A stretch of DNA of 40,680 nucleotides from Cyanobacteria bacterium FACHB-DQ100. GTDB taxonomy: Bacteria > Cyanobacteriota > Cyanobacteriia > Leptolyngbyales > Leptolyngbyaceae. Positions 1 to 40,680 of this stretch are shown piece after piece. Position 1 is the stretch's first letter. The number at the start of each line of letters is the position of its first letter. Under the pieces are notes generated by a model. It was not told the DNA's origin, did no database searches, and saw only the letters and a program-made list of their open reading frames with translations. The DNA lies in the NCBI GenBank assembly GCA_014695195.1, contig JACJNW010000042.1, forward strand, positions 1-40,680. The letters are read 5' to 3'. The position numbers and the translations under genes were made by a program.

Positions 1-131
1 TGCATCGTAAGACCTTGTGCTACTCGAAGTCAGTGGAGATGCTCAGTCATTCGATTCGCTTGTTACTGCACTACCTCAAATTTCGAGATGTGCCCATTCC
101 AGTCTAATTCATCCTCTCATTCAGCAATGCC
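1..131 (+). mobile_element. Right end of an IS1-type insertion sequence (truncated by window start)
   Basis: This stretch holds the last codons of an IS1-family transposase and the terminal inverted repeat. Bases 105-131, read on the minus strand, match bases 40568-40594 at the other edge of the window at 20 of 27 positions without gaps; both begin GGC(A/G)TTGC. That pairs the two stretches as the right and left ends of one IS family. The outer boundary is placed at about base 131 from this alignment. The flank just outside (CGTTATTTT) does not match the flank outside the other IS end, so the two ends are not the two sides of one insertion. Confidence 0.85.
3..107 (+). CDS. IS1-family transposase, C-terminal 34 residues (partial)
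   Basis: The frame from base 3 reads through motifs such as KTLCYSKSVEM and LLLHYLKF and ends at TAA 105-107. This is the conserved C-terminal tail of cyanobacterial IS1-type transposases (InsB-like DDE enzyme), recognised from family knowledge. The rest of the gene lies before the window. The stop codon overlaps the terminal inverted repeat, which is usual for compact IS1 elements. An N-terminal fragment of the same type of protein is at the far end of the window (from 40607). Confidence 0.85.
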   Translation, partial: HRKTLCYSKSVEMLSHSIRLLLHYLKFRDVPIPV

Positions 132-1121
132 CGTTATTTTAGTTTATTAATCAGCATACTCTTGGGAATTATAGTTCTGGGTGTATCAATAAGTCTTTTT
201 ACTTTAGCAAGGACAAAAGAGCAGAAAATTAATACGGTTGTCGCAGAAGAAGTCAAAGCACAAACAGTTGCTCTTAGGAAAGAACAAGAAGAAGCCTTAA
301 GAGCGTTTCAAGAAGCTCGGCAAAGGAAGCAGTCTGCTGAACTTGAACAGAGATTAGCTGAGGAACAACTGAAGGAAGCTAGGGCAGAAGTTCAGGTAGC
401 CTTAACTAAATTGGAGGGTGCCAAGATAGAACAACAAGCGATTCAACAAACCCTTCTTCTTGCTCAAGAGAGAGAGAAGGTTGCTCAAACTCAAACACGA
501 CAGGCACAGGCTAAGGCAGTAAAGCAGGTAACAATTGCAGAGATGCAGGTAACAATCGCAAAAGAGAAAGTAGCTGACGCAGAACAGCAGTTGTTACAAA
601 TTAAAAAGGAGATAGAAGCAATTCAAAAGCTTCAAGTCACGAAGATTGCCTATAGTCCTGAAGGAAAACTTATTTCGAGTGTAGGCATAGATGGAACGGC
701 TCGTTTATGGGATCAACAAGGAAATTTGATCACCGAGTTACGAAGCGCCGAGGGGAAAATCATTAGTATGGCGTTCAGCCCTGATGCAAAGCTTGTTGCA
801 ACTGCAGGAACAGATGGATCGGCACGCTTGTGGAATCAACAAGGAAGACAGGTACTAGCTCTTAAGGGTCACGAAGCAGAAGTTACTGGAGTTGCATTCA
901 GTCCAGATGGACGTACGATCGTAACAGCTAGTCGAGATAAAACTGTTCGGTTGTGGACCTATCAAGGTAAGTTATTAAACATTCTGCGGGGCCATCAAGC
1001 AGGAATTAGTAGTATTATCTTTAGCCCTGATGGCCAATACATTTGCTCTGCTAGTGAAGATGGTTCAATTAAGCTTTGGAATATTCAAGGAGAAGAAATG
1101 TTTTATCAGCACTCAAACTAA
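132..1121 (+). pseudogene. Membrane-anchored coiled-coil WD40-repeat protein, 5' end removed by the IS1 element
   Basis: The frame is open from the IS1 stop codon across the IS boundary, so no native start codon remains; a TTG at 162 could restart translation and give 319 aa. Seen in order are a hydrophobic segment (about residues 1-14 from the TTG, and longer upstream), a long Glu/Gln/Ala/Lys-rich coiled coil (about 18-155), and four WD40 repeats ending RLWD, RLWN, RLWT and KLWN (about 158-310). A typical propeller has seven blades, so four is few. In cyanobacteria this layout is usual for the C-terminal half of large STAND/NACHT or AAA-like proteins with WD40 sensors, so the lost N-terminus may have been an NTPase or effector domain. 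That identity is inference; the truncation is seen in the sequence. Confidence 0.75.
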
Positions 1122-1285
1122 AAACACCTGTCAGCTTTGGTTTGAGTTTGCTTAACTAAAGGTAAAAATTATGGCCTCCACCCTACTCGTATACCAGGAT
1201 CAGACTTTCTACAATCGCACCTCTTCTTCAGGCATCTAAAATTCGAGATAGGATACAGGCAAACTTTGTAGAGGTTTAAGTTTTT

Positions 1286-1792
1286 CTGAGCCTGTCTCTT
1301 GAAGAGTTCGATGCCATTATTGCCAAAATTGCCGTAGGAGAAGCTGATCAAGCAGAGATTAGTGCTCTGCGATGTGCCCTGGCTGCGAATGAGCTATCAA
1401 ACCAACACTTGGGAAAGTACAACATCAATATTAGGCAGGGTCAGAATGTCCGGATTGGTGACAACCTCTACTTTCCAGAACTGACTGATGAGGCAATTCA
1501 AGCGATCTTTCACCACATCTTTCGAAAACTGCAATCCACTGTTCAACCTGATTCATCTCCTACCAAGTCTGTTGATGAACTGGTGCAAGAAGTGCGATCG
1601 CGCTCTGAAATTGAATTGACTCTTTCAGGAAATGCAGTGTTTAGAAGTAGCTTTGGGCAAGGCTTTCAAAAATTGTTCAACCGTTTTATTACAAAAGTGG
1701 GTTGGACAATCGTCGAAAATGGAGCAAATTGTCCAACTATTTTTTTGCAGTATTCAAAATCTGAACGAAGAGATCGACATTACAGGCGATGA
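1286..1792 (+). pseudogene. Fragment of an effector-associated-domain (EAD-like) N-terminus of a STAND/NACHT-type protein
   Basis: Frame 2 is open from just after a TAA at 1277-1279 to the TGA at 1790-1792. It reads LSLEEFDAIIAKIAVGEAD, then GKYNINIRQGQNVRIGDN, then SVDELVQEVRSR. These are the recurring signatures of the small adaptor domain at the N-terminus of many cyanobacterial NACHT/STAND conflict proteins. No ATG, GTG or TTG precedes the domain; the first usable start is TTG 1409, in its middle. After the EVRSR motif (about base 1600) the sequence stops resembling such proteins, so I place a junction there. The NTPase part is missing. The next gene (tnsD) continues in the same frame right after the single stop codon. 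It is probably dead. Confidence 0.55.
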
Positions 1793-1804
1793 AATTGTCC
1801 AACT
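1701..1804. repeat. Inverted and direct copies of an ATTGTCCAAC motif
   Basis: GTTGGACAAT at 1701-1710 is the exact reverse complement of ATTGTCCAAC at 1728-1737. A 13-base stretch, AAATTGTCCAACT, occurs at 1726-1738 and again at 1792-1804, exactly 66 bases apart. The cluster lies at the junction between the EAD fragment and the truncated tnsD. It could be a remnant of protein-binding repeats, such as a transposon end, or a footprint of the rearrangement that joined the two genes. The function is unknown. Confidence 0.5.
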
Positions 1805-3730
1805 GCTTTATTACTCGACACCAATAAGAAGGGGATTGTACGAGAGCTATTTGGAGATGAGGCGGCGATCGCGGTTGTTGATCTACCCAGTAATCTTGGT
1901 CGTCTTGCCTCGGCATTACCACCTGGTAGCCAATATACGGTTGAACGTCTAATCAATAACCATACGCTCCTTCCATTCTTCGCGCCTTTCCTGCATCCCG
2001 AACAGGCTCAACAACTTTGGGCTGATATGGGAGGGGCACGAGGACCTGCAATTAAAATGCGGTCTGGCATCATGGCAAGTACGGTTCAACCTCCAGAGTG
2101 GCTCAGGTTTTGTCCCCTTTGTGTACAGGAAGATACACAGAACTTTGGAGAGTGCTACTGGCATCGTCTTCACCAACTACCGGGAGTCGAGGTTTGCCCT
2201 GACCACAACGTTCGTCTGCTCGATAGCGAAGTTCGGGTTCAGAATCCTCAAATTCGTCATGAGTTTGTTTCAGCAGAGCAGAGAATTCAACTGCCTCAGT
2301 CACGCTCTTTCAGCCTGTTGAACTCTCACCATAGAATCCTACTGAAGATAGCTCAGGATGCCACTTGGCTGTTACAACAGACAGCCTCCCCACCTGGACT
2401 AGATATTCTATTGAAACGGTATCGTCAGCTTCTTACGGAGCAGGGTCTTGCTACCTATAGCGGTAGAGTACGAGTGAGCGAAGTACTCAGGGATTTTCGT
2501 CAGTTCTATCCAAATAATCTTCTACAAAGCCTTCAGTGCGGAATTGATTCTGAAAGTCAGCATAGCTGGCTATTTCGGCTAGTACGATCGCCGAAGGGCT
2601 CTCAGCACCCCCTACGTCACCTGTTGCTCATGCAATTTCTTGGGCATACGGCTGAGTCTTTTTTCCAGCTTCCCCATCAGTTCAAGCCTTTCGGTGAAGG
2701 ACCCTGGATGTGTTTAAATAGGGTGGCTGACCACTTTCAGCAAAATGTGATTTATAGATGTGAAATTACATATAGCCGAGAGAATGGTAAACCAATAGGT
2801 ACGTTCAGATGCTCCTGTGGATTTACCTATGCTCGCACTGGACCAGACAAATCCGAGGAAGATCAATTCCGAATTAGTAAAATTCGAGCATTTGGCCCGA
2901 TTTGGGAGCAAGTATTAAAGGCGTTGTGGCAGGATTCGTCAATTAGTTTACGCGGGATTGCTCGTCAACTGGGAGTAGATGCCGCTACAGTTAAACTTCA
3001 TGCAGCAGCGCTAGAGCTGAAGTTTCCCCGTCAGGCGAAACGACAAAGCAATCGAATGAAAAGAAGGTTGTCTGACGCTCAAACTAGGGAAACAGTCTCT
3101 CCGAAGTTGCCTTTCAAAAGCTACCGAACAGAATGGTTAATCATAAGAACAGAACATCCTGATGCAGGACGTTCTGCGCTCAGGAAGCAGTTTCGGCGAG
3201 TTTACACGTGGCTGCAACGGAATGATTCGGAGTGGCTAGAAGCTCATCTGCCTCCACGTCTGCAAAAAACTATTCCAGTTATCCGGGTCGATTGGGAAAA
3301 TCGAGATGCTGAACTGGCTGAAGCCGTTGAAGTGGCAGTTCGTCATCTGCAAGAAAAACTAGGAAAGCCCAAGCGGATTACAATCGCAGCAATTGCACGT
3401 GAGCTAGGACAGCTTGCCGTAATCCAGAAACATTTGCATAAACTCCCTTTAACTGCACAGATTCTAAATCAAAAAACTGAGACGAGAGAGGCATTTGCTT
3501 TGAGACGAATTGAATGGGTTCGGGAATGCTATGAGAAAGAGCAAATCTGCCTACAAAGATGGCAAGTGGGTCGTCGAGCCGGTTTGAGACCGGATGTCGA
3601 AGCCCTGCCAGCGGTTCAGGATGCTCTGACAGCAGTAGTAGAGAACCTGTATCAAAAGCAAGCGTCAGCATGGGGACATTTAAGGACTGGACGTTTCAAT
3701 CAGGAGAAAAAGTTGCGTTCTGGTGGATGA
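1793..3730 (+). pseudogene. tnsD: TnsD/TniQ-family target-selection protein of a Tn7-like transposon, N-terminus missing
   Basis: TnsD proteins bind a specific attachment site and recruit the TnsABC transposase. Reading starts directly after the stop at 1790-1792 with IVRELFGDEAA, DLPSNLGRLA and ERLINNHTLLPFFAPFL, followed by a zinc-type cluster CPLCVQED...WHRLHQLPGVEVCPDH and a second one, CSCGFTYAR. An HTH-like stretch, LRGIARQLGVDAATVKLH, lies near 2950, and a long DNA-binding C-terminus reaches 3730. These are classic TniQ/TnsD features. The usual first 40 or so residues (a YPDELLYS-like motif) are absent, and the first in-frame ATG is at 2027, inside the domain. The frame itself is otherwise intact over about 645 codons. 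Genes for TnsA, TnsB and TnsC are not in the window, so it is probably an orphan remnant. The next ORF overlaps its end. Confidence 0.8.
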
Positions 3731-4559
3731 GGTCGCCTCGTCTTGATCCAGTCAATCGCTCATGGATAGCCACTGCTATTTTTCGTCGCTTATCAGGAGA
3801 GTGTCAGGAAATAGACTTTCCGTGGAGGGAGTTTTGGCGAACTCGCCAAGGCTGGATCTATCGAGATGGACGAATTAACACATGGCTTCAAGATCTTACA
3901 CAATTTAGGATCGAGCGTCGGAAAATTAAACTTGCTGAAGCACCAAAGACGATACTACTGAGTGCTCAAGAGGCTTTGGATACTAATCATAATTTGATTC
4001 AAGGGGCTAAGAATTTATCCGAATTTTGTATCGAGTTACGAGTTGACCAGCTAGTTTTGGTGATTCCAGTGCTTGTTCTGATCCGGAGCTTGACACCCAG
4101 TAGACACTTAGCTTTTGGAATACTGGAACCAAATTATCCAGAACGAATCATGACGGGGTGGGAAGTTGAAAAGGATACACTTTATCTCAACTTCTCAGAT
4201 GAGGTTCCTCATTCCTCACGTACAAAACCATTTGTTAAAACGATTGCAGAACTTCTTTATGACACTTTATTTAGAAGAATTTGGGATAGTGTTTATCGCA
4301 ATCGGATTCTAGATCGCGCAAATATCACTTTTTGAGTTGGGGAGTTGAAATTCCACTCAAAATGGAATTTCCAGAGTGCTCAGCCCTAGTTGTTCAGGGT
4401 GTACGTTATAGATCGGTCGAGTTTATCGATGAATTAATTTACACAGAGAGATTCCTGGTGCAGGATATATTGCTTCAACGCAAGACTGTATCTCTACCAT
4501 TTATGCAGATAGAAGTAAGGCATCCTAAATTGAGCAGTGTCAGAATTTACAAGTATTAA
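3670..4559 (+). pseudogene. Gene in tnsE position, split by a frameshift; function not recognised
   Basis: The ATG at 3670 overlaps the end of tnsD by 61 bases, as expected for an operon. The first part (221 aa) has FKDWTFQSGEKVAFWW, a tract of W, F and R residues around NRSWIATAIFRRL, and ends at TGA 4333-4335 just after a run of five T (4329-4333). A second frame, open from 4332 to 4559, continues without a gap (SWGVEIPLKMEFPECSALVV ... SSVRIYKY). One extra T would join them into a protein of about 296 aa. In Tn7 the gene after tnsD is tnsE, and the W-rich start is vaguely TnsE-like, but Tn7 TnsE is much longer (over 500 aa), so this is only a position-based guess. The frameshift may be a mutation, a sequencing error in the T run, or programmed. 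Confidence 0.4.
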
Positions 4560-21763: not shown

Positions 21764-23941
21764 ATGCTCCGTTTTTTATTACTTGAAGATAGCGCGATCG
21801 ATGCCGATCTCATTCAAGCAGTTTTGCTAGAAGGAGGATTGGAATTTGACCTTAAATTAGCTCAAACTCGCAACGATTTTATAACAGCCCTTGACCAGCA
21901 GGTGTTCGATCTGATTCTGGCAGACTATTCACTCCCTGGCTTCGATGGATCGTCTGCTCTTGAAATTGTCCAGGAACAGTGTCCGGCTATACCCTTCATT
22001 TTTGTTTCCGGGACGCTCGGAGAAGAAGTGGCAGTAGAAATGCTGAAAAGCGGTGCAACCGATTATGTCCTGAAACAACGACTAGAACGGCTGATTCCTT
22101 CGGTAAAGCGTGCTTTGAAAGAAGCGGAGGAACGGGCTGCTCGCAAAGATGCAGAAGAAAGACTGATCAATTATGCAAATCGCTTACAGACGCTATCAGA
22201 AACTTCTCGCAGCTTTTCCGAAGCGATTTTGGATTTTCAAACTCTACTCAATACGGTGTGCTGCACCATTGGAGAATTAATTGGGGATGCTTGCATTCTG
22301 AAACTTGTTTCTGATGATGAACAGTGGCTTCAGATTCGGGCAGTCTATCATCGTAATCCTGAACTGGTGGCGCGAGTACAGCAGGCTGCCAGCGCTTTCC
22401 CACAACGGATTTACGAAGGGCTGTCAGCTCAGGTACTCCAAACTCAGCAACCTTTGTTTCTGTCCACGACGACTAATGCAGAACTACAGGTTTCGACACA
22501 AACGGAAGCCTCCTACCTAGAGCAATTTATAGTCCATAGCCTCATGATTGTGCCACTCCGAGTCCGAAACCGGAGCATCGGCAGCCTCAGTTTGATTCGA
22601 GAGACACCTGATAAATCCTATATGATCGATGATCAAACGTTTTTGCAAGATTTAGCCAATCGCGCTGCGCTTGCGATCAACAATGCTCACCTTTACCGAA
22701 AATCCCAAGAAGCCAATCGAATTAAGGATGAATTTCTAGCGATGCTCTCCCACGAATTGCGGTCGCCCCTGAACGCGATTATTGGTTGGTTGAGTTTGCT
22801 GCGAAGTCGTCAGTTTGATGGAGCAACAACGACTCGCGCTCTAGAAACCGTGGAACGGAATGCCAAAGCTCAAGCAAGACTGGTTGAAGATTTGCTCGAT
22901 GTATCGCGTGTTCTTCAAGGCAAACTTCGTCTCACCCTCCGTCCTCTGGAACTATTGCCTGTTGTTGAAGCTGCGATCGACACGGTGCGACCAACGGCTG
23001 AGGCAAAAAACATCCAATTGCACCTAGCTCTAGATCCTCAAATCGGGAAAGTTTCGGGCGATGCGGAACGTTTGCAGCAAGTCATTTGGAATCTCATGAG
23101 CAATGCTGTGAAATTTACACCAAAGGGAGGACGGGTTGAGGTCAAGCTAGAAAAAGCTGGCGCAGACGCGGATGGGCAATCTGCTCTCGCTTTCGATGCC
23201 CAAATTACAGTATCTGACACCGGACAGGGGATAAAACCTGAATTTCTTCCCTATGTCTTCGATCGCTTTCGCCAAGCAGATAGTTCAATTACCCGGACGC
23301 ATGGCGGTTTGGGTTTAGGGTTAGCCATCGTGCGCCATCTCGTTGATTTGCATGAGGGGCAGGTTTTTGCGGATAGTGCAGGTGAAGGTAGAGGCGCAAC
23401 CTTCACTGTAAGGCTGCCGCTGCTGGCTCCAAAACCGGATCTGGGACGAACCCGGACTAACGCTTCTGAAATTGCCATGATTGATCCATTTCACTGTGCC
23501 GCTCGCTTAACCGGGCAACGGATTTTGATCATTGATGATGATTTGGATGCTCGCTTCTTATTGCTCTCGATTCTAGAAGAATGTGGTGCGGAGGTTGTCG
23601 CGGCGGCATCAGCGAGTGAAGGAATTTCAATCTTAACCAGTTCTGGAAACTCATTTGACCTGCTAATTAGTGATATTGGGATGCCCGGTGAGGATGGATA
23701 TACTCTCTTACGACGGGTACGCTCGCTGCACGTAGAGCAAGGGGAGCATATGTCCGCAATGCTGAAGAACGCTTGTCGTATTCCTGCGATCGCGGTCACT
23801 GCATATGCCAGAGAAGAGGATCGTCAGGCTGCACTCTTAGCAGGCTTTCAGGCTCATCTTGCGAAACCAATTGATCCAACTCGGCTTATTCTGTTAGTTG
23901 CAGATTTGGTCAGTCAAACAGCAACCGAAGTATTGTTCTAA
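21764..23941 (+). CDS. Hybrid kinase with receiver at both ends: REC - GAF - HisKA - HATPase - REC
   Basis: The protein has 725 aa from ATG 21764. The frame is open further upstream, but an earlier start would lie inside the preceding regulator gene, and the receiver begins right at this ATG (MLRFLLLEDSAIDADL). The first REC (about residues 1-120) has LILADYSLPGFDG. A GAF domain (about 150-305) follows, then HisKA with MLSHELRSPLNAIIGW (His near 329), boxes NLMSNAVKFTP, DTGQGI and GGLGLGLAIV, and a second REC (about 585-720) with LLISDIGMPGEDGY. It follows the Rcp1-type regulator by 20 bases, so the kinase, regulator and this protein probably form a phosphorelay operon, with phosphate entering at the N-terminal receiver. 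The sensory input of its GAF domain is unknown. Confidence 0.92.
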   Translation: MLRFLLLEDSAIDADLIQAVLLEGGLEFDLKLAQTRNDFITALDQQVFDLILADYSLPGFDGSSALEIVQEQCPAIPFIFVSGTLGEEVAVEMLKSGATDYVLKQRLERLIPSVKRALKEAEERAARKDAEERLINYANRLQTLSETSRSFSEAILDFQTLLNTVCCTIGELIGDACILKLVSDDEQWLQIRAVYHRNPELVARVQQAASAFPQRIYEGLSAQVLQTQQPLFLSTTTNAELQVSTQTEASYLEQFIVHSLMIVPLRVRNRSIGSLSLIRETPDKSYMIDDQTFLQDLANRAALAINNAHLYRKSQEANRIKDEFLAMLSHELRSPLNAIIGWLSLLRSRQFDGATTTRALETVERNAKAQARLVEDLLDVSRVLQGKLRLTLRPLELLPVVEAAIDTVRPTAEAKNIQLHLALDPQIGKVSGDAERLQQVIWNLMSNAVKFTPKGGRVEVKLEKAGADADGQSALAFDAQITVSDTGQGIKPEFLPYVFDRFRQADSSITRTHGGLGLGLAIVRHLVDLHEGQVFADSAGEGRGATFTVRLPLLAPKPDLGRTRTNASEIAMIDPFHCAARLTGQRILIIDDDLDARFLLLSILEECGAEVVAAASASEGISILTSSGNSFDLLISDIGMPGEDGYTLLRRVRSLHVEQGEHMSAMLKNACRIPAIAVTAYAREEDRQAALLAGFQAHLAKPIDPTRLILLVADLVSQTATEVLF

Positions 23942-24224
23942 AGCAGAAGAATTTGAATCTTTCCATCTCTAAATAATCACCAGTTGATGGGATGACAGGC
24001 TACTAGGAGTCTTTCTTTTTGCTCTTGGGCAAGACTTGTGCAATTGCTCCCATTAATTCCTATCAATCACTAGAACATAAATGCCTTGCAGATTAAAGAT
24101 TGCGTAACCCCTATCCTGCACAAATTCTCAGCATTTTTGTGCTCTTAAATATAGGCTCGCTGTCACCCCTCTAAACTTCGCCATTCAATTCTCACCTATC
24201 TTCATGCTCGTAATAGAAGTCGAT
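23942..24224. other. Non-coding stretch with no recognised feature
   Basis: This is about 280 bases after the kinase stop codon. No plausible gene, hairpin terminator with T tract, or RNA gene was recognised. It leads into the repeat array at 24225. Confidence 0.6.
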
Positions 24225-24375
24225 AGTGTACAACTTTATTTTCAGGAGCTTCTGCAACTAATCTAAAGCAGTGTACAACTTTAATTTCTAGCGGATCAGA
24301 AGAATGAATCTAACTATTAGCCTTTTGAGATAGTTCAGTGTACAAGTTTATTTTCAACTTACAGTTACGTTGACA
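24225..24375. repeat. Three spaced direct repeats and a TGT/ACA terminus; possible Tn7-like transposon end
   Basis: A motif with the consensus AGTGTACAA(C/G)TTTA(T/A)TTTC occurs at 24225-24244, 24270-24288 and 24337-24356. Read on the minus strand from 24375, the sequence starts TGTCAACGTAACTG and then enters the first motif copy (GAAAATAAACTTGTACACT). Three separated binding sites spread over about 150 bases behind a TGT terminus resemble the layout of the left end of Tn7, where TnsB binds; this comparison rests on general knowledge. If correct, the element interior lies to the left, toward the tnsD remnant, and the boundary is at 24375/24376. The matching other end was not found in the window. 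Confidence 0.45.
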
Positions 24376-24443: not shown

Positions 24444-25349
24444 TTAAGTTACACTCGTACCTTGAACATCGATCGCTAAACTTTTTACTTGCACTCCAAC
24501 TTCTAATCCGATCCAAGCTTTCTCCATCGCTGCATTGACTGCTTCAGCTTTTTCCTGATGGGCCAACGCCAACACCGTCGATCCAGCTCCACTAATCACC
24601 ATGCCATAAGCGCCAGCACCGATCGCCGCTGTTCTCACTGCGTCGTATCCTTTAATCAGCTTTTCCCGATAAGGTTGGTGAATTCTATCCTGCAATGCTG
24701 CTTTTAACCAATCTGCGTTTCCGGTCTCTAAGCCCCGAATTAGTAGCCCCAAGTGAGACGCATTAAAAATCGCATCAGCGCGGCTATAAGTTGCAGGTAA
24801 AACACTACGAGCTTCGGCAGTTGATAGTTCAAAATCGGGAATGGCTACGATCGGTACAATGCTCGAATGCCAAGGTAGGTCGCAAATTTCCCAAGCGCGA
24901 TCGATGCCTGATGCCGCTAATCGACAGCCCCCAATTAACGCAGGCACCACATTATCCGGATGTCCCTCGATCTCGGTCGCGAACTCTGCAAGTTCAAGCT
25001 GTGATAACGGTGATCCTGCGAGTTCGTTTGCTCCGACTAATCCGCCGACGATCGCAGTTGCCGAACTGCCCAATCCCCGCGCTAACGGTACCTCCATTTT
25101 GATCTCGAGCTGGACGGCTGGAATGGGTTGATTGATGCGATCGTAAAGCTTTGCAAATGCCTGATACACCAAATTACTCGAACCCAGCGACACCCGCTTC
25201 GCTTCTGCTCCCGTTGCGGTAATTCTCAATCCAGAGTCGATGCGGGAAAACTGGAATTCGTTGTAGAGCGTTAACGCCGCTCCAAGACAATCGAACCCAG
25301 CACCGAGATTGGCAGTAGTCGCAGGAACACGGACAGTAACATTAGACAT
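24444..25349 (-). CDS. thrB: Homoserine kinase
   Basis: This is the GHMP-family enzyme that phosphorylates homoserine with ATP in threonine synthesis, in the cytoplasm. At 301 aa it has the usual family length. Diagnostic motifs are [18 protein letters not shown] at the N-terminus, the ATP-binding loop [16 protein letters not shown] (about residues 90-105), [14 protein letters not shown] and the C-terminal [10 protein letters not shown] motif. I choose the ATG at 25347-25349 because [11 protein letters not shown] is the conserved start; a GTG 15 bases upstream would add five residues. It stands alone on the minus strand next to the divergent folC gene, and its downstream side meets the putative transposon end. 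Confidence 0.95.
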
Positions 25350-26794: not shown

Positions 26795-28861
26795 ATGATG
26801 GACGATTCTTGCTCTCAAACCGATGATTTCTATGAAACGCGCCCTAATTCCGAGGGTGAGAGCTGTGCAGAAGCTTCTAAAGTAAAGCCAACTAATTCCC
26901 AAATCCTGGAGCGCCTTCACCAAACAGAAGCTGCTCTACAAGAAAGTGAAGCGCGATTTAAGCGATTTGTTCAAGGCAGCCAGGACGGATTTTGGGACTG
27001 GGATGTTGTACGTGATCGCTGGTACGTCTCCGATCGCTGGAAGCAACTGCGCGGAATTGCCCCCGATGCCACCATCGCAGATACTGTTACTACTTGGTAC
27101 GAATCTACACATCCAGACGAGCGCGATCGCGTTTTAGACGGATTTCGGCACTATGTTGCTCAGGGATCAGGACAGTACAGCGAAGAATATCGGATCGTAC
27201 AGCCAGACGGAACGATCATTTGGGTGCTCGATCGGGGTCAGGCGACTTGGGATGAAACTGGACGTGCAATTCGAGTCACCGGATCACAAACGGATATCAC
27301 AAAACTAAAACGCACAGAAGAAGCGTTAGAAGAAAGTCAGTTGATCTATAAAACGCTGGCGGACACAATGCCGCAAATGTTTTGGATCACACAAGGCAAT
27401 GGCTATCATGATTACTTTAATCAACGCTGGTATGATTACACCGGAACAAAGCCGGGAGAAACTGACGGCGAGGGCTGGCAAACCTGCCTTCACCCGGAAG
27501 ATGCTAAGAAAGCGGCTGTAACCTGGCAAGAATGCCTCAAAACGGGACAGCCTTATAACGTCGAATATCGCCTCCGATGCGCCAAAACTGGAGAATATCG
27601 CTGGCATCTCGGACAGGCGCTCCCCCTGCACGATTCAGACGGCGATATCGTCAGATGGTTTGGCTCTTGCACCGATATTCACGATCAGAAATTACTCATC
27701 GAAGAGCGAGACAGCGCCTTAGAACGAGAACGCGCCGCCCGACTTGAACAAGAAAAAGCCAACCGTACCAAAGACGAATTTCTCGCCGTCGTCTCACACG
27801 AACTGCGATCGCCCCTCAATCCGATCTTGGGCTGGATCAGACTGCTCAGAACCCGAAAAATGGGAGAAGCTCAAACTCAGCAAGCCCTTGAAACGATCGA
27901 GCGCAACGCCAAGCTGCAATCCCAACTGATCGAAGATCTGCTTGATGTGTCCAGAATTCTGCGTGGGAAATTGGCGCTGAAAATCACACCTGTCAATTTA
28001 GTCACGGTGATCGAATCGGCGATCGAAACCGTTCGCCTTTCTGCTCAAGCCAAAAATATTCAGATTCAAACCCGCGTCAACGCCAACCTCACTTATGTTT
28101 CCGGCGACTTTAATCGACTTCAACAAGTCGTCTGGAACCTGCTCTCGAATGCCGTAAAATTCACCCCGGACCACGGCACCATTACGATCGAGCTATGCGC
28201 CACCGACTCTACGATCAACATTAGGGTTCAGGACACCGGAAAAGGCATCGCACCCGAATTTTTACCGCACGTCTTCGAGCAATTTCGCCAAGCCGATAGC
28301 AGCATCACTCGGCAATTTGGCGGTTTAGGATTGGGTCTTGCGATCGTGCGTCATATTGTCGAGCGTCATCAGGGTCAAATCCGCGTCGAAAGTAGGGGCG
28401 AAAATCAAGGCGCAACCTTCATTGTGGAGCTACCGTTATTGAATACTCCTGTAAACTCTGCGATCGCCCCACTGGATCACACCCCCGACGAGCAGTTAAC
28501 CGGGCTATCGCTGCTGATTGTCGATGATGAAGCCGATGCCCGCGAACTGCTTGCCTTTTTGCTAGAGCAACAAGGTGCGATTGTCACGGCTACCAGTTCC
28601 GCCAAAGAAGCACAAGCGAAGCTAGCAAAGTTTCAGCCCGATCTTTTAATTAGCGACCTGGGCATGCCCGATGTCGATGGATTTCAACTGATTCGGCAAC
28701 TCCGGGCAGAAGGTCGATCGATTCGAGCGATCGCCGTGACTGCCTATGCGCGGGAAGAAGATCGTCAAGCGGCCCTCGCGGCTGGATTTCAGGCGCACGT
28801 CACTAAGCCGATCGAACCTGCGGAACTGTTCAAGGTAATCCGGGCAGCCGTGCAGAAATAG
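26795..28861 (+). CDS. Hybrid sensor histidine kinase, 2 PAS - HisKA - HATPase - REC
   Basis: The protein has 688 aa and no membrane segment. Two PAS domains of the PAS_3 type span about residues 55-170 and 183-300. HisKA has VVSHELRSPLNPILGW with the phospho-accepting His335. The ATP-binding boxes are NLLSNAVKFTP, DTGKGI and GGLGLGLAIV. The receiver (about 565-685) has LLISDLGMPDVDGF and a Lys in TKP. Its catalytic and receiver parts belong to the same subfamily as the three tandem kinases at 4.6-16.6 kb and the REC-flanked kinase at 21.8 kb, although it lies among housekeeping genes. It starts 76 bases after folC; of two adjacent ATG codons I list the first. Confidence 0.92.
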   Translation: MMDDSCSQTDDFYETRPNSEGESCAEASKVKPTNSQILERLHQTEAALQESEARFKRFVQGSQDGFWDWDVVRDRWYVSDRWKQLRGIAPDATIADTVTTWYESTHPDERDRVLDGFRHYVAQGSGQYSEEYRIVQPDGTIIWVLDRGQATWDETGRAIRVTGSQTDITKLKRTEEALEESQLIYKTLADTMPQMFWITQGNGYHDYFNQRWYDYTGTKPGETDGEGWQTCLHPEDAKKAAVTWQECLKTGQPYNVEYRLRCAKTGEYRWHLGQALPLHDSDGDIVRWFGSCTDIHDQKLLIEERDSALERERAARLEQEKANRTKDEFLAVVSHELRSPLNPILGWIRLLRTRKMGEAQTQQALETIERNAKLQSQLIEDLLDVSRILRGKLALKITPVNLVTVIESAIETVRLSAQAKNIQIQTRVNANLTYVSGDFNRLQQVVWNLLSNAVKFTPDHGTITIELCATDSTINIRVQDTGKGIAPEFLPHVFEQFRQADSSITRQFGGLGLGLAIVRHIVERHQGQIRVESRGENQGATFIVELPLLNTPVNSAIAPLDHTPDEQLTGLSLLIVDDEADARELLAFLLEQQGAIVTATSSAKEAQAKLAKFQPDLLISDLGMPDVDGFQLIRQLRAEGRSIRAIAVTAYAREEDRQAALAAGFQAHVTKPIEPAELFKVIRAAVQK

Positions 28862-40567: not shown

Positions 40568-40680
40568 GGCGTTGCCTAATGGAGAGATGAATTAAGGTGA
40601 CTCTCAATGCAGTGCCCTGAATGCCAATCCACTCATATTCGCAAGAATGGAAAACGCAAAGGCAAGCAAAATCATATTTG
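40568..40680 (+). mobile_element. Left end of an IS1-type insertion sequence (truncated by window end)
   Basis: The terminal inverted repeat starts at 40568 (GGCGTTGCC...) and matches the right-end repeat at 105-131 at 20 of 27 positions. The transposase start codon follows at 40607. The orientation is the same as for the IS end at the start of the window. The flank outside (TTTACAAATC) differs from the flank of that other IS end. Confidence 0.82.
40607..40680 (+). CDS. IS1-family transposase, N-terminal 24 residues (partial)
   Basis: The frame reads MQCPECQSTHIRKNGKRKGK to the window edge. The CPEC zinc-finger half and the basic stretch after it are the usual start of IS1-type InsA/transposase proteins in cyanobacteria. 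The gene continues beyond the window. The C-terminal end of a copy of the same family is at 3-107. Confidence 0.85.
   Translation, partial: MQCPECQSTHIRKNGKRKGKQNHI

Follow-up and report, generated by a model that had tools for sequence, protein, structure and literature searches.

Three copies of a short repeat lie between a block of histidine kinase genes and the homoserine kinase gene thrB in the cyanobacterium FACHB-DQ100, and they raise the question of whether they mark the end of a transposon of the Tn7 type and whether the kinases next to them travelled as its cargo. The window, i.e., the whole stretch of DNA that was analyzed, has a length of 40,680 nucleotides and comprises all of contig C42 of a genome of 5.5 Mb in 44 contigs. 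The reading preferred here, to which we give a probability of roughly 0.8, is that the repeats (termed L1) are the distal end of a decayed, glmS-homing Tn7-like element that once bore tnsE, that a second Tn7-like element lies beside it, and that the kinases are likely former cargo.

Results

Repeats and terminus of the end L1

The 19-bp repeat AGTGTACAASTTTAWTTTC was found with its three copies beginning exactly at 24225, 24270 and 24337 and with spacings of 45 and 67 bp, as the initial annotation of this DNA had described (Table 1). The window holds three matches to the pattern, whereas 100 shuffled versions gave 0.02 on average, a figure that speaks for the repeat nature and not for the identity of the sequence, as the pattern was derived from the copies themselves. 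With one copy as query and up to three mismatches allowed, a search of the own genome returned the L1 trio with 0, 1 and 2 mismatches and a single further match, on contig C28 with three mismatches and at about chance level. Thus, the repeat is not dispersed, and the scattering through the genome that had been named as an argument against a transposon end was not seen in this search.

Read from outside to inside, L1 consists of TGTAAGTT followed by GAAAATAAACTTGTACACT and by sites at positions 76 and 121. It agrees with the left end on contig18 (G007:C90) of FACHB-63, the closest relative among the genomes compared (G007), at 81% over 24138–24363 and with that on contig133 (G007:C39) of the same genome at 88% over 23887–24364. 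Because homology stops at 24363 and 24364 and because 8 bp precede the first site as a rule, the terminus is best put at the ACA of 24361–24363, exactly 8 bp outside the first site. The terminus proposed earlier, 24375, was rejected: an ACA does stand at 24373–24375, but homology stops 11–12 bp before it, and the rule of 8 bp plus site fits 24363. L1 hence shows multiple TnsB-type sites, spaced as in a left end and lying 8 bp inside a TGT terminus, and judged by sequence the trio of repeats forms the left end of an element of the Tn7 type, with predicted TnsB-type sites. The adjoining GTTAC gave no clear match with the glmS flank of the own genome when compared by eye, and no target duplication is demonstrable for the window copy, the right end of the element (R1) being lost.

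Table 1: Features of the window, with coordinates, strand and basis of assignment.
Feature	Position	Strand	Basis or remark
End of insertion sequence (IS), perhaps IS1-type	1–131	+	8-bp duplication CGTTATTT (132–139 in the window) shared with contig C11
Interior of second element: WD40-repeat gene (to 1121, broken by IS) and EAD10 open reading frame (ORF; 1409–1792, into L')	132–1670	+	
Predicted left end L' of second Tn7-like element, terminus 1820	1671–1820	-	Sites at 1671, 1727, 1793
tnsD remnant without first ~28 codons (listed ORF from 2027)	1821–3730	+	Pfam TnsD; homology to intact tnsD
tnsE remnant, about residues 7–275 of 541	3664–4532	+	ORF ends 4335
Kinase 1, PAS/GAF hybrid histidine kinase, 1295 aa	4624–8511	-	Pfam
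Kinase 2, multi-PAS hybrid histidine kinase, 1104 aa	8545–11859	-	Pfam
Kinase 3, multi-PAS/GAF hybrid histidine kinase, 1568 aa	11929–16635	-	Pfam
Kinase 4, DUF4118 + multi-PAS histidine kinase, 1160 aa	17809–21291	+	Pfam
Kinase 5, GAF hybrid kinase, 752 aa	21683–23941	+	Pfam; tail inside left end of FACHB-63 element
Stretch 94% identical to inner side of FACHB-63 contig133 left end	23887–24224	+	Kinase 5 tail and intergenic sequence
Inner predicted TnsB-type site of L1, position 121 from terminus	24225–24243	-	Same position in FACHB-63 contig18 left end
Middle predicted TnsB-type site of L1, position 76	24270–24288	-	
Outer predicted TnsB-type site of L1, position 9	24337–24355	-	
Terminal 8 bp TGTAAGTT, predicted element terminus at 24363	24356–24363	-	Homology limit in two FACHB-63 left ends
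GTTAC, putative half of a target duplication whose other copy is lost	24364–24368		Position only
thrB, homoserine kinase, 3' end toward L1	24444–25364	-	TIGR00191, E 2.8e-89

Occurrence of the end in other genomes

Looking for the repeat at the ends of other cyanobacterial elements had been proposed as a check, and it was found at Tn7-like elements of FACHB-63 and of Stenomitos frigidus ULC18, whose left ends have the same site layout; the earlier comparison with a three-site end of the Tn7 type is borne out. In a scan of the genome collection the exact 19-bp site occurred in 14 stretches. Nine additional stretches among them were examined, four of which contain at least three site-like matches (up to five mismatches) within about 150 bp; two of these four ends, in FACHB-471 and in a Peptococcaceae genome, lie behind glmS, and thrB was present in none of the nine. 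The 19-bp end site behind glmS of Peptococcaceae bacterium BRH_c8a (a Firmicute; L144) comprises one exact and two near copies at a spacing of 20 bp. Microcoleus sp. FACHB-61 (L140 7546–7689) has two inward-facing ends of the L1 family about 144 bp apart, a possible mini-element without genes.

Remnants of tnsD and tnsE

The tnsD/tnsE-like remnant annotated at 1.8–4.6 kb was located about there. Its TnsD matches the Pfam family TnsD with E 6.5e-117, and the homology to intact tnsD starts at CCAATAAG, position 1821, at about codon 29. About half of tnsE is left in the window: the N-terminal half is 41% identical to full TnsE over 214 aligned positions, the matching frame shifts near 4308, and beyond that point the match is weak (30% identity), so that TnsE is recognizable by its N-terminal part only.

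TnsD-like matches were obtained in 13 of 42 genomes of the family, the own genome counted. The TnsD of the window is 65–72% identical to five TnsDs of elements with L1-type end sites, and in a tree of 14 TnsD-like proteins it groups at 99/99 with those of G018, G026, G061 (ULC18) and the two FACHB-63 elements (C90, C39), i.e., within the glmS clade of TnsD/TniQ proteins, although the gene is truncated. In four of these five elements glmS adjoins the right end; in C39, the fifth, a piece of the 3' end of glmS at the contig end takes its place. TnsE is described as almost universal among elements targeting glmS in the part of the literature drawn upon here (PMC11406308). In the elements compared, tnsE was found in three of the five (G061, G026, C90). 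A second tnsD stands in tandem in G018 and C39, and no full tnsE is present in the stretch read (L071 867–4638, L069 12792–16944). Among plasmids, the best match to the window TnsD reached 38%.

No match to tnsA, tnsB or tnsC was detected within the window. The TnsB of G061 as query found nothing in the own genome in a search that had no built-in control, and the same query recovered tnsB by tblastn in all four related elements (C90, C39, G018, G026). The TnsA family profile PF08722 was silent, as it was on its controls, and PF00665 gave six weak matches in the own genome, none of them above the cut-off. Since tnsA, tnsB and tnsC are missing, the element was classified as a remnant and not as a working member of its family; without right end, tnsABC and the start of tnsD it is, by its gene content, judged to be dead and should not be able to move by itself. 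The Tn7 order of tns genes, cargo and distal end that had been recognized before is retained, with the restriction that the tns part is such a remnant without tnsABC.

A second element and the probable link to glmS

The tns side of the block leads to glmS by way of a second Tn7-like element at 1–1820, which is absent from the initial annotation. Its left end L' (TGTCGAGT AATAAAGCAGTTGGACAATT...) has sites at positions 9, 75 and 131, and the tnsD homology begins exactly at its terminus. Scanning the own genome for the L' site yielded 13 matches, three in the window, three on contig C11 (309289, 309309 and 309329, with a spacing of 20 bp) and seven others, all with three mismatches; a reversed control pattern gave six. 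The right end R' on C11 starts 24 bp behind the stop codon of glmS, and R' and L' carry the same sites 8 bp inside their termini. An R'-like end followed by tnsA and tnsB matches also lies behind glmS in G009.

Contig C11 ends within an IS a few hundred bases past R', and the window opens with the end of what is presumably the same IS. Because CGTTATTT stands outside the IS on both contigs, because the joined flanks form a single open frame from C11 into the WD40 gene, and because three other edges of the IS that were met (window right end at 40568, C1, C23) have other flanks, C11 and C42 are very probably neighbours, which would place the window directly behind glmS. Contig C1, with a copy of ftsH, was discarded as a neighbour, for it shares the common IS end only and has other flanking bases. 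The window closes (40568–40680) with the beginning of the same IS, equally oriented and with unlike flanking bases. One IS peptide matched an InsA-type zinc ribbon of Pfam with E 0.002, below the cut-off, the other had no match, and the name IS1-type is tentative.

Without the IS, the second element (window 1–1820 and C11:309281–309711) measures about 2 kb, and no tns genes were seen in it. Its 5-bp flanks are unlike, TTGAG at R' and CCAAT at L', so that it does not represent one clean insertion; the unmatched flanks point to recombination between copies or to an adjacent deletion. The overall order is glmS, second element (R'..L'), tnsD/tnsE remnant, five kinases, L1 and thrB.

To place this arrangement among others, 32 stretches downstream of glmS were compared, of which 30 had been collected (one with only 2 bases) and two, from G061 and G026, were added as known carriers of such ends. 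At least two sites within 220 bp were present in six of the 32 for the first family (four of 30 without the added two) and in three for the second (three of 30), with 35–40 bp between the end of the glmS match and the first site. Random stretches yielded 4 of 5,000 and 3 of 5,000, respectively, from a pool which itself contains such ends. In FACHB-63 both left ends have right-end-like repeats of another family outside (L099 61–838, L100 1–1094), and one of these repeats adjoins a tnsA match of 45% identity. Hence, tandem stacking is not peculiar to the own genome.

The kinase block

That about 20 kb of kinase genes are cargo, as first suggested, finds direct support for the last kinase by its 94% identical tail, and for kinases 1–4 the case is one of position. 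The 338 bp shared with contig133 include roughly the final 17 codons of kinase 5; contig133 retains only ~55 bp of this gene, in the same frame and without a stop codon, and an IS110-like gene (named by eye) lies next to this piece. For the rest of kinase 5, compared with 58 genomes and with five candidates scored per genome, matches of at least 300 bp did not exceed 69% and some of the short ones (76–120 bp) reached 77–81%, among the matches listed. The sequence thus supports kinase 5 as cargo through its tail only, whereas kinases 1–4 would be cargo by their position.

In their aligned parts the five kinases are 24–62% identical to each other and 31–53% identical to a resident kinase at 26795; kinases of this class are accordingly common in the own genome. 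Kinase 4 stayed below 60% in a plasmid search, among the matches listed. The end of the tnsE remnant lies ~90 bp from kinase 1, and since tnsE is truncated so close to it, a rearrangement has joined the two, and kinases 1–4 may have arrived by another route.

Discussion

Proposed history of the locus

An intact element would have consisted of right end, tnsABCDE, cargo and left end, and by analogy with its family TnsA and TnsB would have cut both ends, TnsC would have regulated transposition and TnsD or TnsE would have picked the target. A different, second Tn7-like family may then have inserted at glmS and into tnsD. Most likely, recombination between the glmS copy and the tnsD copy removed R1, tnsABC and the first ~28 tnsD codons; such recombination of two copies of the second family would account for the unmatched flanks as well as for these losses. 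With tnsE decaying as well, there would have remained the present row from glmS and R'..L' over the tnsD/tnsE remnant to five kinase genes that are still open, L1 and thrB. Most likely, the kinases once were cargo of the element and have since become fixed in the chromosome.

The thrB side and alternative explanations

The position of L1 at thrB differs from the place at glmS occupied in its relatives and counts against this explanation; L1 would have come there either by inserting at a site other than glmS or through a rearrangement. It had been stated that thrB starts right after 24375. The gene does adjoin the repeats, but it lies on the minus strand, and its stop codon (24444–24446), not its start, faces them. 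The region behind thrB was readable over 3.8–10.4 kb in six of seven genomes of the same genus, the contig of G003 stopping inside thrB. None of the six has the kinase block or a multi-site end there, and G007 has one lone site match with four mismatches 3.4 kb away; the case regarded beforehand as contrary to a transposon, kinase block and thrB side by side in relatives without ends, was thus not met with in these six. The suggested comparison of this region for an empty site and a 5-bp duplication demonstrated neither, no empty site being recognizable in the six genomes, whose sequence there differs from the window. For the genes after thrB in G007 and G004, the best-matching sequences of the own genome are located on other contigs.

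Among the alternatives, an insertion next to thrB, by the TnsE pathway or without target choice, with a later rearrangement to the glmS side, deserves the most attention, though we consider it somewhat doubtful. Three findings would suit such a course: L1 follows the stop codon of thrB at a distance of about 80 bp; in G002, G004 and G006 a single contig holds glmS and thrB at a great distance from each other; and tnsE was once present. On the other hand, distant loci would have to have been joined by a deletion or translocation that coincided with the junction of L' and tnsD, and the five closest TnsD relatives are located at glmS (four with glmS, one with its contig-end piece).

It is unlikely, to a slightly greater degree, that kinases 1–4 are resident chromosomal genes that were caught between two relics by rearrangement, with kinase 5 as sole cargo. 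The short junction between the tnsE remnant and kinase 1 and the frequency of similar hybrid kinases in these genomes would agree with it, yet the block is absent beside thrB in the six same-genus genomes read and lies in its entirety between tnsE and L1, where related elements have their cargo.

That thrB serves as a new TnsD attachment gene is very improbable and was dismissed. Where thrB finishes, there is a terminator-like hairpin (by eye) with the end just behind it, a position comparable to that of Tn7 behind glmS; nevertheless it is the left end that faces thrB and not the right one, the five TnsDs closest to that of the window, with which it forms the glmS clade, belong to elements at glmS, and thrB is absent from the nine of 14 pattern loci that were checked. 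The portion of the target-selector survey drawn upon here does not mention thrB (PMC10293859). An ordinary dispersed intergenic repeat can practically be discounted, as the own genome has no other copy within two mismatches and the ends homologous to L1 bound elements that have tns genes.

Significance

Returning to the preferred reading of a decayed glmS-homing element, the three-site end that had been read from sequence alone was confirmed by comparison, exact termini are proposed for one Tn7-like group from these cyanobacteria, and a stack of two dissimilar Tn7-type elements behind a single glmS, with their transposase genes lost, is documented. If all five kinases were cargo, elements of the Tn7 type would move sensory genes. 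One might speculate, with considerable reserve, that in this genus unlike Tn7-like families pile up in tandem behind glmS, that recombination between them strips their tns genes while the cargo stays as chromosomal genes, and that the five-kinase block was delivered and fixed in this way; the Tn7-type site would then serve as a gateway by which new sensory circuits come in.

The 2021 cargo survey describes nested mobile elements, and neither ‘histidine kinase’ nor ‘two-component’ occurs in its main text (PMC8649781). On Tn7 elements with kinase cargo in cyanobacteria, the literature searched, outside of which many relevant papers lie, yielded one review, off-subject by its title, and it contained no paper title on such arrays in this genus. 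Sensor-kinase cargo appears somewhat unusual for an otherwise known kind of element.

Comparison with known systems

The element on contig18 of FACHB-63 has site positions in its left end (9/76/121) identical to those of L1 and possesses all five tns genes in the order glmS–R–tnsABCDE, with tnsC in two frames. The contig133 element has tnsA, B, C and D, a second tnsD, and the contig-end piece of glmS beside its right end. Their TnsDs are 65–68% identical to that of the window, from which both elements differ in that tnsABC is kept, the right end is retained behind glmS and the cargo is unlike. Between tnsE and the left end of the contig18 element lie type I-B cas genes (Cas1 with a Cas4 part, Cas3, Cas7, Cas8; L070 1–7850), which are probably normal CRISPR-Cas cargo and not a guide system for transposition.

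The element of ULC18 (G061:C73) carries the same TnsB-type sites as the window at both ends, and its left end has the same layout of 8 bp plus site. Its TnsD is 68% and its TnsE, over the N-terminal part, 41% identical to those of the window. In contrast to the window remnant, tnsABCDE is complete, in the order glmS – right end – tnsA – tnsB – tnsC – tnsD – tnsE – cargo – left end. The element is flanked by the 5-bp duplication AGATC (by eye, with termini set by the 8-bp rule), and a duplication of this length is ascribed to Tn7 and its relatives in the part of the source used here (PMC11406308).

Tn7 itself, for which the same part of that source describes TnsB sites overlapping in the right end and spaced in the left (PMC11406308), was compared by its left-end sequence, which matched NC_002525.1 at 100%. 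Its left end likewise has 8 terminal bp followed by three spaced sites, at 9/73/129 as against 9/76/121 in the window. The site sequence differs, the window copy is dead and the cargo is unrelated, whereas glmS is the attachment gene of Tn7 and of the intact relatives of the window element alike.
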